Position numbers and translations under genes: made by a program. A stretch of 64,000 nucleotides of DNA from Balneolaceae bacterium. Its GTDB lineage: Bacteria > Bacteroidota > Rhodothermia > Balneolales > Balneolaceae. The stretch lies in assembly GCA_003561515.1 (NCBI GenBank), contig PWWL01000353.1, positions 1 through 64,000 of the forward strand, in the 5' to 3' direction. Shown here one piece after another: positions 234 through 5,328 of the stretch. Position 1 is the stretch's first letter, and the number at the start of each line of letters is the position of its first letter. The notes under the pieces are model-generated. The model had not been told where the DNA came from, did not search any database, and was given only the letters and a program-made list of their open reading frames with translations.

Positions 234-1562
234 ATGCCAAAAGTAGTTCAGAAGCTCGATGATTTTGTAAACCTGATCGATCCGGATCAGAACCAAATTT
301 TTAACATGACCCAGGAAGAAGCCGAGGTCATCGTAGCAACCGGCGATCCGGAGCAGGTGAGGAAGATTGAGGGCAGTTTTGCCATTGTGACCAAAAAAGA
401 CGAGCAGGTGTATATGGCCCGCTCAATCGGCCGGCCGATGCGCTACTTTATGGCCAAGCAGGTTGCCGGCCCGTTGCTGATTGTGGCCGACCGTATTGAT
501 GATATTCATGAGTACCTCAAAGAGCTTGGCCTAGAGGATCAGTTCAGGCCCGATTACACTCGCATGGCGCCTGCCCACTATGTTACGAGGCTGGATGTGA
601 TCGGCTGTCCGGATCCCAACCCTGTACACAAGCGATATTTTACCCCGGAGCGCAACACCCTGAATGCCGACCTGGACAAGATCGGTGAGGCGTATGTGGG
701 GGCCATGGCTAAGGAGTGTGAAAAATGGCTCGATTCCATCCCGAAGGAAGAGCCAATCGGTGTGCTCTTTTCCGGCGGTATCGACAGCGGATCGGTGTTT
801 CTGGCACTGTATGATCTGCTGCTGAAAAGGGGAGAATCTCCCGCCAGGCTAAAGGCATTTACGCTTTCAGTGAATAACGGCCCCGACGCACAGCAGGCGT
901 TTGAATTCCTGGATAGGCTCGGGCTGAGCATGTTTCTGGAAGTGATAGAAGGTGAACTTTCTGATCTTGATTACAAAGAAACCATTCGCGTGATCGAAGA
1001 TTACAAGGCGCGTGATGTAGAGGCCGCAACCATGGCTCTTGCGCTCTGCAAGAAGATCCGTGAGCGCTATCCCGACTGGAAATACCTGGCCGATGGCGAC
1101 GGCGGCGATGAAAACTTGAAATCATACCCGATTGAAGACAACCCCGAGCTGACAATACGAAGCGTACTCAGTAATCCGCTGCTCTACCACGAAGGTTGGG
1201 GCGTGGATAAAATCAAGCACTCGCTCACGTATTCGGGCGGTCAGAGCCGGGGACACGTTCGCGTTTATGCAACGGCGGGCCGATACGGTTTCAAAGGGTT
1301 CAGTCCCTACACACTGCCCAATGTGATTGAAGTTTCGGAGGGCATTCCCTTTATCCAGCTTACCGACTGGAAGCATGAAGAACTCTATGCCCTGAAAGGA
1401 GAGGTTGTTCAGTGCGGAGTGAAAGCGGTGACCGGTCTGGATATGCCGGTATTCCCCAAGCGTCGTATGCAGCACGGAACTGTGGATATGAAAGATTTTA
1501 AGAAGGTGTTTGCTGAGGATGAGATGGTGTATCGTCGGTATTTTCAGTCTCTTTATTTGTGA
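234..1562 (+). CDS. Asparagine synthetase-like protein (degenerate N-terminal class II glutaminase domain plus PP-loop synthetase domain)
   Basis: PP-loop motif GVLFSGGIDSGS and YLADGDGGDEN; the N-terminus MPKVVQKL lacks the Cys2 nucleophile of class II amidotransferases. Confidence 0.8.
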   Translation: MPKVVQKLDDFVNLIDPDQNQIFNMTQEEAEVIVATGDPEQVRKIEGSFAIVTKKDEQVYMARSIGRPMRYFMAKQVAGPLLIVADRIDDIHEYLKELGLEDQFRPDYTRMAPAHYVTRLDVIGCPDPNPVHKRYFTPERNTLNADLDKIGEAYVGAMAKECEKWLDSIPKEEPIGVLFSGGIDSGSVFLALYDLLLKRGESPARLKAFTLSVNNGPDAQQAFEFLDRLGLSMFLEVIEGELSDLDYKETIRVIEDYKARDVEAATMALALCKKIRERYPDWKYLADGDGGDENLKSYPIEDNPELTIRSVLSNPLLYHEGWGVDKIKHSLTYSGGQSRGHVRVYATAGRYGFKGFSPYTLPNVIEVSEGIPFIQLTDWKHEELYALKGEVVQCGVKAVTGLDMPVFPKRRMQHGTVDMKDFKKVFAEDEMVYRRYFQSLYL

Positions 1563-1614
1563 CCGCTGATTTCGCAGATTGCGCTGATGTAGAATTTGAT
1601 TTTGTTGATGGATT

Positions 1615-2550
1615 ATGGATAGTGGGATAAGTAATGAGGTAGTTGAGGAGCTCAGGGGGGCGAAGGCGGGGGTGGATCCGTTAAGGCCGAACCTGTGGCT
1701 GCATGAGCAGGAGGTGCAGGCCGGGGGAGAGGTGAAGAGTGTGAACACGATTTTTCTTACCAACCGGGAGTGTCCGTTTAAGTGTACGATGTGCGATCTC
1801 TGGCGGCACACGCTCGATGAGCCAACCCCGAAAGGTGCTATACCGGTACAGATTGAATTTGCACATAATCGACTGCCGGAGGCTGAAGTTGTAAAACTCT
1901 ACAACAGCGGCAATTTTTTCGATGGGAAGGCGATTCCGCGATCTGATTACCACGCCATTGCAGGGCTGCTCTCGGAATACGAACATGTGATTGTGGAGAA
2001 TCACCCGAAGCTGATCGGCAGTTTCATTCCTGAATTCCGAGATATGCTCAGAGGCAGTTTTGAAATCGCCATGGGTCTGGAGAGCATTCATACCGTGGTG
2101 ATGCCGAAGCTGAACAAACAGATCACCCGCGAAAACTATCGCAAAGCATCTGAGTACTTGGTATCGGAGGGAATTGATGTGCGGGCGTTCATTTTGCTGA
2201 ATCCGCCATTTTTGACGGATACCATTGAGAATATAGAGTGGTGCCTTAAAACCGTGGAGTTTGCGTTCGATTGCGGAGCATCGGCCTGTTCCATCATCCC
2301 CACACGGGACGGTAACGGCATCATGGAGAAGCTGCGGGAGCAGGGTGAGTATGTGCCGCCAACGTTGGGTTCATTTGAGGAAGTGTTTAATCGTGCACTG
2401 AAGCTTAACCGCGGAAGGGTGTTTGCCGATCTATGGGACCTGGAGAAATTTTCTGACTGCAGTGAGTGTTTTGAGGCGCGCAGGCAGCGAATGGAAGAGA
2501 TGAACCTTGGCCAGGTGGTTTTGCAGAGGGTTCATTGTGAGTGCCAATGA
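1615..2550 (+). CDS. Radical SAM protein, COG1244/Elp3-like family
   Basis: NRECPFKCTMCDLW (CxxxCxxC) cluster motif; conserved LYNSGNFFD, AMGLESIH and SIIPTRDGNG segments. Confidence 0.85.
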   Translation: MDSGISNEVVEELRGAKAGVDPLRPNLWLHEQEVQAGGEVKSVNTIFLTNRECPFKCTMCDLWRHTLDEPTPKGAIPVQIEFAHNRLPEAEVVKLYNSGNFFDGKAIPRSDYHAIAGLLSEYEHVIVENHPKLIGSFIPEFRDMLRGSFEIAMGLESIHTVVMPKLNKQITRENYRKASEYLVSEGIDVRAFILLNPPFLTDTIENIEWCLKTVEFAFDCGASACSIIPTRDGNGIMEKLREQGEYVPPTLGSFEEVFNRALKLNRGRVFADLWDLEKFSDCSECFEARRQRMEEMNLGQVVLQRVHCECQ

Positions 2551-2569
2551 TTGTTTTAGACAGATTTTT

Positions 2570-2785
2570 AAAATCCCCTCTTGCCTGTCCCGAGCGCTTC
2601 GGGGAGAGGGGAAAAGGAAACACGAAAACGCGATGCGTGATTCGTGTTTCCGAGGGGTGTGTATTCGGGTTATGATTCGATAAGAAAGAATGGAAGTATA
2701 CATTGAACCCGTGAACACACCCCTCGCTTGCCGAACAGCACTTTGTGCTTTCAGCTTCACATTTCCCCTCTCAAGAGGGGATTTT
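2570..2785. repeat. Nested inverted-repeat (BIME-like) intergenic element
   Basis: AAAATCCCCTCTT (2570-2582) pairs with AAGAGGGGATTTT (2773-2785); CGAGGGGTGTGTATTCGGGTT (2651-2671) pairs imperfectly with AACCCGTGAACACACCCCTCG (2706-2726). Confidence 0.8.
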
Positions 2786-2820
2786 CGTGCCGCCTGATTA
2801 TATAAGCAGATATTTACAGA

Positions 2821-4341
2821 ATGAAGAGATCAAAACAATATGATTTTCTGATTGTCGGTTCCGGTTTTGGAGGATCGATTATGGCGATGTGCCTGGCCAA
2901 ATCGGGGTACGAGGTTTGCCTGGTGGAAAAGGGGAGTCATCCCAGGTTTGCCATCGGTGAATCGTCGACTCCGGTTGCGGATATGATATTGAGGGACCTG
3001 GCTGACCAATATGACCTTCCTTTTCTGAATGAGATTTCGCGATACGGGGAGTGGCAGAAAAATCATCCAGAAGTAGTCTGTGGATTGAAGCGCGGATTCA
3101 GTTACTATCCTCACAAAAGCGGGGAACGGTTCAGCAGTGATGGTAATCACTCCAACGAGCTGCTTGTTGCGGCAAGCGTGGATGATGTAAATTCAGATAC
3201 CAATTGGCTTCGGAGCGATGTGGATCACTTTTTAGTGCAACAGGTTAAGCGACTTGGTATAGACTATTTCGATAACACCGAAATCAGCAGCCTCAAGCGT
3301 GAAGATCAAGTCTGGAAGGTGCAATGGAATCATGGAAAAGAAACCAGTGATCTGAGTATCCAGGCAAAGTGGATTATAGATGCCACGGGCTCACCGGCTT
3401 TTTCTGAAAAATTTTTCGGTACCGATTCTTCATCTTCAGGTTTTTATACAAATTCATCGGCCATCTATTCGCATTTTGAGGCTACAGAGAAATGGTTCGA
3501 TTATCTGCAGGAAAATGGATTCTACACTGATGATTATCCCTACAATCCCGATCATTCTGCGCTGCACCAACTGATTGATGAGGGCTGGATCTGGATGCTT
3601 CGATTCAATAATGACCTGCTCAGCGCGGGCATCGTATTTGATAATAATGATGGTGAGCCCGGTTGCGAATTAAACTCTGAGTCGGAATGGAACCGAATTC
3701 TTTCCAAATACCCATCTGTGCAAAAACTATTTGAATATTCAGTGATTTCAGAATCACCCGGCAAGCTGATTTACTCAGGAAGACTGCAGAGGCGGCTGAA
3801 CCGTACATTCGGGGACGGCTGGGTTGCACTAAACCATACGGCCGGATTTGTGGATCCGCTGCACAGTACAGGCATTGCCTTTACGCTGAGCGGTGTTGAA
3901 AGGCTTCTTCAGATTTTGAATGATTCAAAAGATGATGAAGACCGGATGCGATTGCTAAAGGTATTTGAAAGATCTTTATTTCGCGAATTGGAGCTGACAG
4001 ACAAGCTGGTATCGGCCTGTTACCTTTCACGAAGCCATTTCAGACCCTTTTCTGCATCTGTGATGCTCTACTTTGCAGCTACAATAAATTATGAGCAGAA
4101 AAGATTGTCCGGATATAAAACCCATTCTTTCCTATGTGCCGATGATGAAGAATTGACAGATATAGTCGAGGATTGTCATAAACAACTGCAGCACTGGAAC
4201 TGTTTAAGCGGCAGGGAAAAATCAAGACGTGCAGAAGAGCTCATTCAATTAATCAGAGAGCAAATTGTACCTTATAACAGTGCAGGCCTGATGGATAAAA
4301 ACAAGAAAAATATGTATTGGCACACAGCTGTGATGTTTTAA
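2821..4341 (+). CDS. FAD-dependent oxidoreductase, tryptophan-halogenase-like superfamily
   Basis: N-terminal GSGFGGS dinucleotide-binding motif, GESSTPVADMILRDL, and GDGWVALNHTAGFVDPLHSTGI; a WIWMLRF segment lies where halogenases have WxWxIP. Confidence 0.75.
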   Translation: MKRSKQYDFLIVGSGFGGSIMAMCLAKSGYEVCLVEKGSHPRFAIGESSTPVADMILRDLADQYDLPFLNEISRYGEWQKNHPEVVCGLKRGFSYYPHKSGERFSSDGNHSNELLVAASVDDVNSDTNWLRSDVDHFLVQQVKRLGIDYFDNTEISSLKREDQVWKVQWNHGKETSDLSIQAKWIIDATGSPAFSEKFFGTDSSSSGFYTNSSAIYSHFEATEKWFDYLQENGFYTDDYPYNPDHSALHQLIDEGWIWMLRFNNDLLSAGIVFDNNDGEPGCELNSESEWNRILSKYPSVQKLFEYSVISESPGKLIYSGRLQRRLNRTFGDGWVALNHTAGFVDPLHSTGIAFTLSGVERLLQILNDSKDDEDRMRLLKVFERSLFRELELTDKLVSACYLSRSHFRPFSASVMLYFAATINYEQKRLSGYKTHSFLCADDEELTDIVEDCHKQLQHWNCLSGREKSRRAEELIQLIREQIVPYNSAGLMDKNKKNMYWHTAVMF

Positions 4342-4417: not shown

Positions 4418-4855
4418 ATGAGTGAATATACAATAAAAGATATTGTTGAGGAGCCCGGAGTGGCTTATGCTGCATCATCATCAACCCCGGAAATGCAGCT
4501 TGTTGAGATGGCACGTAATGGCATTTCAAAAAAAGCATTGCTGCGCATTGCAGAAATGAGCAACCTGTCCGTTAGCGAACTCACCAAATTGCTGCCTGTA
4601 TCTCTGCGCACCATTCAGCGATACAGCGACGATGATTTGCTCGATCGTGCCGTATCAGAGCATGCGCTCAATATTGCCGAAGTTATCTCCCACGGCACCC
4701 GGGTTTTTGGCGATCTCGAAAGTTTTCAGCGATGGCTGCATTCGCCGCTTCCCGCCCTTGGCCATCAAACGCCCGTCAGCTTTCTCGATACCGGTTTTGG
4801 AGCCCGCATGGTCTCTAATCTGCTGGGCCGTATCGAGTACGGTGTCTATTCGTAA
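4418..4855 (+). CDS. Xre/MbcA/ParS-type (DUF2384) antitoxin
   Basis: HTH-like SKKALLRIAEMSNLSVSELTKLLPVSLRTIQRY, then a toxin-binding-domain-like C-terminus; directly upstream of a RES-domain protein. Confidence 0.85.
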   Translation: MSEYTIKDIVEEPGVAYAASSSTPEMQLVEMARNGISKKALLRIAEMSNLSVSELTKLLPVSLRTIQRYSDDDLLDRAVSEHALNIAEVISHGTRVFGDLESFQRWLHSPLPALGHQTPVSFLDTGFGARMVSNLLGRIEYGVYS

Positions 4856-4860
4856 AACTG

Positions 4861-5328
4861 ATGAATCTTTACAGAATCGCCAAACAAGCATTTGCGGATG
4901 ATCTCTCAGGAGAGGGAGCAAGGTTGTATGGCGGGAGATGGAACCGGCAGGGAGTTGCGGCGCTCTACACTTCGGAGAGCATCGCCCTGGCAGCAATGGA
5001 AGTTTTGGTTCATGTAGCAGCGGCGGACCTGCCCGACGATCTTCAGCTGGTTACTATACATGTGCCAGATGACGCTGCCATGAATGTTATCCAGCCGGAG
5101 GAACTGCCCGAAGGGTGGAGGCAGTATCCTCCGCCGGTAATAGTGAGTGAAATGGGTACTCAGTGGCTTGAAAAGAGAGAAAAACTGCTCCTGCGTATTC
5201 CTTCTGTGGTGATTCCACGCGAGTGGAATGTGCTTTTGAATCCGAAAAACCCGGAATTTACATCCGTGAAGATTCTCAGTGTCGAACCTTTCGGTTTTGA
5301 CAAACGGCTGAAAAAAGTATCAGGGTAA
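4861..5328 (+). CDS. RES-domain toxin
   Basis: LYGGRWNRQGVAALYTSESIALAAMEVLVH and RIPSVVIPREWNVLLNP are RES-family signatures; 5-bp gap from the antitoxin. Confidence 0.88.
   Translation: MNLYRIAKQAFADDLSGEGARLYGGRWNRQGVAALYTSESIALAAMEVLVHVAAADLPDDLQLVTIHVPDDAAMNVIQPEELPEGWRQYPPPVIVSEMGTQWLEKREKLLLRIPSVVIPREWNVLLNPKNPEFTSVKILSVEPFGFDKRLKKVSG

Follow-up and report, generated by a model that had tools for sequence, protein, structure and literature searches.

Near the start of a 64,000-nucleotide stretch of DNA from a Balneolaceae bacterium (contig PWWL01000353.1, positions 1 to 64,000; hereafter the window) lie three genes which form a real, conserved and uncharacterised three-enzyme module. 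They encode an AsnB-like ligase (ASNB), a radical S-adenosyl-L-methionine (SAM) enzyme (RSAM) and a flavin-dependent halogenase-like enzyme (HALO). The members of this trio are almost certainly linked in function. The reading that we favour, to which we give a rough probability of 0.45, is that they constitute a dedicated, self-sufficient pathway of three enzymes acting in sequence to modify a substrate. An earlier reading made from the letters alone (the sequence-only reading) had described three co-oriented genes of these families, and indeed all three open reading frames (ORFs) are intact and the families were matched:

234..1562, plus strand: ASNB, AsnB-like PP-loop ligase of 442 residues with a shortened N-terminal domain and no N-terminal glutaminase cysteine (Pfam Asn_synthase PF00733, E 1.5e-11; orthologues at E < 1e-190 across phyla; alignment)
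1615..2550, plus strand: RSAM, RaSEA/COG1244-like radical SAM enzyme of 311 residues (TIGR01210 RaSEA, E 3.7e-30; AlphaFold2 model with pLDDT 88)
2821..4341, plus strand: HALO, halogenase-like flavin-dependent enzyme of the PltM/CtcP type, 506 residues (PDB PltM, E 2.4e-42; tetracycline 7-halogenase, E 3.2e-41; Trp_halogenase PF04820, E 3.5e-15)

The joint function suggested in the sequence-only reading gains its support from a nearly exceptionless co-occurrence in Bacteroidota and Planctomycetota. Among 248 genomes sampled from the phylum of the window (Bacteroidota in the GTDB sense), orthologues of ASNB, RSAM and HALO were found in the identical 17; for RSAM the weakest orthologue in this sample matched at E 8.5e-99 as against E 1.6e-21 for the next-best match. 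The Planctomycetota sample contained ASNB in 10 of 246 genomes and HALO orthologues in the same 10 (E 4.2e-139 or better), and RSAM, looked for in individual genomes of this sample, turned up in each of the 10. Three further planctomycetes carry distant HALO paralogues only (E 1e-54 to 1e-61), and a genome search gave no match to RSAM in them. Orthologues occurring singly or in pairs were essentially not found in either phylum sample. If the families were independent, the chance of identical sets of 17 genomes would be, for one family pair, about 1e-26 counted by genome and 1e-12 counted by genus, figures that are only indicative as the exact and permutation tests ignore shared ancestry. Moreover, over 37 genomes the distance matrices of ASNB, RSAM and HALO agree well with one another (r of 0.92, 0.90 and 0.88), and such values were reached in none of 999 permutations.

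Physical linkage is common in these genomes. A scan of genome contigs, in which Balneolaceae metagenome-assembled genomes (MAGs) were the closest named relatives, returned 16 RSAM relatives; the order ASNB-RSAM-HALO is kept in most Balneolaceae and in both Phycisphaerae, the exceptions being contig ends or unlinked copies, and in many loci the genes overlap or sit within about 100 bp of each other. Linkage alone does not account for the co-occurrence, since unlinked genomes keep all three genes. All three are apart yet present in three planctomycetes (G250, G341, G470). In G302, G323, G435, G481 and G492 HALO is distant from the ASNB-RSAM pair, G123 has HALO on a different contig, and ASNB is on a separate contig in G252 and G253, again with the full trio present. 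In several Balneolaceae a Wzi-like capsule gene is placed on the opposite strand between ASNB and RSAM or, in genomes with ASNB at another site, upstream of RSAM (L008:6338-7831, L009:6341-7858, L011:6342-7826, L006:6354-7820, L010:802-2292).

The following catalytic and putative metal-binding motifs were recognised in the three proteins:

771..791, plus strand: ATP-pyrophosphatase (PP-loop) motif SGGIDSG of ASNB, residues 180-186, in which S180, G181, G182, D184, S185 and G186 do not vary among 41 aligned sequences
1771..1794, plus strand: radical SAM [4Fe-4S] motif CxxxCxxC of RSAM (C53, C57, C60), its three cysteines invariant in 45 aligned sequences
2458..2544, plus strand: C-terminal CxxC...MNLxQ...CxC region of RSAM (C282, C285, C308, C310), present in most relatives and missing in some (e.g. 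Phycisphaerae)
2857..2874, plus strand: flavin adenine dinucleotide (FAD)-binding GxGxxG motif (GSGFGG) of HALO, conserved in the alignment with a few GASFSG variants
3088..3090, plus strand: Lys90 in CGLKRGF of HALO, aligned with the catalytic Lys87 of PltM and invariant in 45 aligned sequences

The similarity of ASNB to AsnB covers the synthetase half only. ASNB can be aligned with the Escherichia coli enzyme across this core, where its SGGIDSG corresponds to SGGLDSS, and it shares with AsnB and with the beta-lactam and carbapenam synthetases a PP-loop synthetase domain that carries an SGGxDS and a GDGxDE-like motif. It differs from AsnB in its shortened N-terminal domain, in its weak match to TIGR01536 (39.7 bits against a cut-off of 267) and in the lack of a conserved cysteine near the N-terminus of the aligned orthologues, the sole invariant cysteine being C125; because of this lack the glutaminase function is missing. 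C125 stands in a GCPDPNP motif (residues 124-130, window 603-623), in a low-confidence region of the model between two domains. The predicted structure is of moderate confidence (pLDDT 67), and in it the segment at residues 48-98 or so is folded into strands and a helix which, by eye, would correspond to the latter half of the N-terminal domain of AsnB. The best Foldseek matches to this model include the beta-lactam and carbapenam synthetases (1mc1, 1q15), with a global TM of only about 0.4. In one relative (L002:6568-7896) an in-frame stop splits ASNB into two neighbouring segments that lie 3 bases apart, either by sequencing error or in a decaying copy.

As judged by sequence comparison, the relationship of RSAM to RaSEA is real but distant, and in this measure it bears out the kinship with COG1244 and archaeosine synthase that the sequence-only reading had stated. 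The match is nearly full-length (RSAM residues 28-310 against model positions 2-295) and scores 105.2 bits, below the cut-off of 212.15. Both enzymes have the CxxxCxxC motif and a ligase-like partner; RSAM differs not only by its score, as its partner is AsnB-like and not ArcS and its hosts are bacteria, some of them without QueC. The predicted fold matches the radical SAM folds of Elp3, PFL-AE and lipoyl synthase. A second metal site, with putative metal binding, is possible in the C-terminal cysteine region.

HALO was aligned with its PDB matches over about 400 residues. It shares with PltM and CtcP the FAD motif, the equivalent of the catalytic lysine, a GWxW region and a DPLxSxG region (PMC6424973). 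The match of Lys90 to Lys87 allows for a 20-residue offset in the numbering of the PDB chain, and the surrounding CGIKLGFSF sequence agrees; the K87A mutant of PltM is inactive (PMC6424973). Nevertheless HALO differs from both enzymes in reaching no NCBIfam halogenase equivalog cut-off (the best was CmlS, with 70 against 900 bits) and in lying outside any recognisable polyketide or peptide cluster. An assignment of the three genes to unrelated characterised pathways, which would have spoken against the sequence-only reading, was not obtained, as all of them score below the cut-offs of the characterised NCBIfam equivalogs. The literature searched, on COG1244 and on halogenases combined with radical SAM enzymes and asparagine synthetase, contains no description of the trio, and a paper on ammosamide with matching terms concerns an unrelated cluster.

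The trio has no further gene as a consistent companion; for this reason it appears self-sufficient, with a common molecule of the cell as its probable target. When the flanks from about 13 lineages were clustered, the only recurrent families besides the trio itself were FG-GAP/UnbV_ASPIC proteins and a few pairs, each common to two lineages. The flank annotation varies by lineage (xylose isomerase/xylulokinase, Wzi, sugar kinases, PaaN, LigA, Hsp90, SMC and others), and unlinked copies are surrounded by unrelated housekeeping genes. The sequence-only reading had remarked that the window has no obvious gene for a carrier, precursor peptide or transporter; in relatives no carrier or precursor peptide recurs consistently with the trio, and recurrent small ORFs are lineage-limited. 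It had also advised a look upstream for missing partners. The window starts at base 1 of its contig (C79) in a MAG (G000) of 408 contigs and 84% completeness, so that sequence 5' of this base is not readable; the flanks of relatives, however, show no conserved upstream partner. A mobile origin was also considered and rejected, as ASNB was absent from the plasmids and viral contigs searched and the RSAM match on Streptomyces plasmids is distant and in an unrelated cluster. On these plasmids, pFRL5 and pFRL3 (L114:13926-15041, L115:13926-15041), the radical SAM gene is 27% identical to RSAM and clusters with P450, serine hydroxymethyltransferase-like, GT9, carbamoyltransferase and RfaE-like (heptose) genes.

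The obligate co-occurrence, the correlated divergence, the retained catalytic motifs and the lack of any other consistent partner are observed, whereas every reaction given below, the order of the reactions and the substrate are inferred. The archaeal enzyme ArcS adds lysine to the preQ0 of a tRNA and RaSEA converts the adduct to archaeosine, the two proteins forming a complex (PMC11298593). A comparable logic of attachment followed by cleavage is suggested by the position of a glutaminase-less AsnB-like ligase next to a RaSEA-like enzyme, and a two-step process in which an amino acid is attached and then cleaved by a radical is conceivable for ASNB-RSAM as for ArcS-RaSEA (PMC11298593). The two pairs differ in that ASNB and ArcS are unrelated enzymes and that a third enzyme always accompanies ASNB-RSAM. 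By this analogy ASNB would adenylate a carboxylate with ATP and couple it through an amide bond to a free amine, which is probably that of an amino acid; a free amine is the probable donor because the catalytic cysteine of the AsnB glutaminase is absent. The 5'-deoxyadenosyl radical of RSAM would then cleave or rearrange the attached unit and leave nitrogen on the product. Lastly HALO, with FADH2, O2 and halide, and with hypohalous acid (HOX) handled by Lys90, would halogenate an electron-rich part of the product; hydroxylation is less likely. Because no other gene consistently accompanies the trio, it probably acts on some compound that is ubiquitous in cells (an amino acid, a cofactor, a lipid or a macromolecule).

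This specific chemistry is offered by analogy and is doubtful. Tentative to the same degree is the wider picture of a cross-phylum pathway in Balneolaceae-related bacteria and planctomycetes, in which ASNB would take up amino-acid nitrogen, RSAM would release it and HALO would complete the product, so that a ubiquitous cellular molecule would end up halogenated or oxidised. Several points weigh against the favoured reading of a dedicated three-step pathway or against its details. The permutation and exact tests take no account of shared ancestry, and the active site of ASNB is beyond model-based analysis at a pLDDT of 67. As RSAM falls under the RaSEA cut-off and ASNB is no homologue of ArcS, the analogy with a lysine donor may fail. 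A glutaminase-less ligase could instead form a ring or a peptide bond, or could use ammonia, and HALO could be a monooxygenase.

The alternative that survives best is small-molecule secondary metabolism, in which the trio would need no carrier proteins and would convert primary metabolites into a natural product, either a halogenated amide or a peptide-like compound; we regard it as possible, though less probable than a self-sufficient modification pathway. HALO belongs to the phenolic/tetracycline halogenase class with its catalytic lysine equivalent, the beta-lactam and carbapenam synthetases are among the closest solved folds to ASNB, and the spread of the trio is patchy (7% of the sampled genomes in the phylum of the window and 4% in Planctomycetota). 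However, natural-product genes are normally clustered with those for transport, resistance and regulation, whereas the trio scatters and nothing else is consistently conserved with it. ASNB is also unusually well conserved, with a median identity within Balneolaceae of 83% against 54% for HALO. The flanks would favour a common cellular substrate over a dedicated natural-product cluster.

Modification of a protein, or of a ribosomally synthesised and post-translationally modified peptide (RiPP), is unlikely; the large FG-GAP/UnbV_ASPIC proteins would be candidate substrates. Genes for these proteins adjoin HALO in four lineages, namely the Phycisphaerae (L015/L016), L059, L054 and L055 (L016:10068-13268, L059:2965-6504, L054:12826-16197, L055:1577-4951), and HALO is distantly related to the flavin maturases LodB, GoxB and QhpG. 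Adjacency in 3 of 8 genera would arise by chance at about 1e-3, a rough and post hoc figure. The domain occurs in 17/17 trio genomes but also in 102/231 genomes without the trio, it is not in the flanks of most trio lineages, the association by genus is weak (p 0.03) and no small precursor ORF recurs. The FG-GAP/ASPIC proteins are kept as a lead. In L016 and L059 these proteins have TPR repeats as well and are closely homologous (E 1e-126).

A bacterial tRNA or nucleoside modification akin to archaeosine and starting from preQ0 is more improbable still. It would fit the distant kinship of RSAM with RaSEA and the presence of the tRNA enzymes Elp3 and MiaB among the closest folds. Nevertheless QueC, which is needed for preQ0, gave no match in at least six trio genomes that are 98-100% complete (G007, G022, G112, G123, G183, G211), while it is present in other trio genomes. 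Moreover, ASNB is not ArcS, no RNA-binding domain was seen and the ASNB and RSAM of the window have a pI of about 5; ArcS itself was not seen in the flanks examined, and no search aimed at it was made. A role in tRNA archaeosine is unlikely because several nearly complete trio genomes are without QueC, though salvage of preQ0, or a non-preQ0 nucleoside, is conceivable. The least credible explanation is that the three enzymes are independent and that a common habitat, or the transfer of a single operon, has kept them side by side. Transfer alone would yield co-occurrence for the linked copies, which are the majority, but all three genes persist where they are unlinked, including the genomes with every gene apart, and single or paired orthologues are essentially not found.

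In the window RSAM and HALO are separated by the repeat element noted in the sequence-only reading, which proved to be a palindromic element of 216 bp (window 2570-2785, about) resembling a miniature inverted-repeat transposable element, with perfect terminal inverted repeats of 14 nt and a hairpin z-score of -10.5. Diverged matches to it occur in two relatives (L003:14165-14243, L004:5712-5782). It is probably a late insertion outside the pathway, because in many relatives this gap is short or absent and the two genes overlap or almost touch. Directly 3' of the trio there is an Xre-ParS/RES toxin-antitoxin pair (window 4418-5328), followed on the opposite strand by apparent sugar-metabolism genes; an Xre gene is also next after the trio in L003 and L006, and RES in L003.

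Three chemistries which are rarely combined are thus found essentially always together, even when unlinked, and point to a missing biochemical pathway. The trio is directly testable, as it consists of three genes with no evident accessory factors and has orthologues in apparently complete genomes. Its study could assign a function, for the first time in bacteria, to a RaSEA-like radical enzyme and could show what a conserved halogenase does in the physiology of its host.

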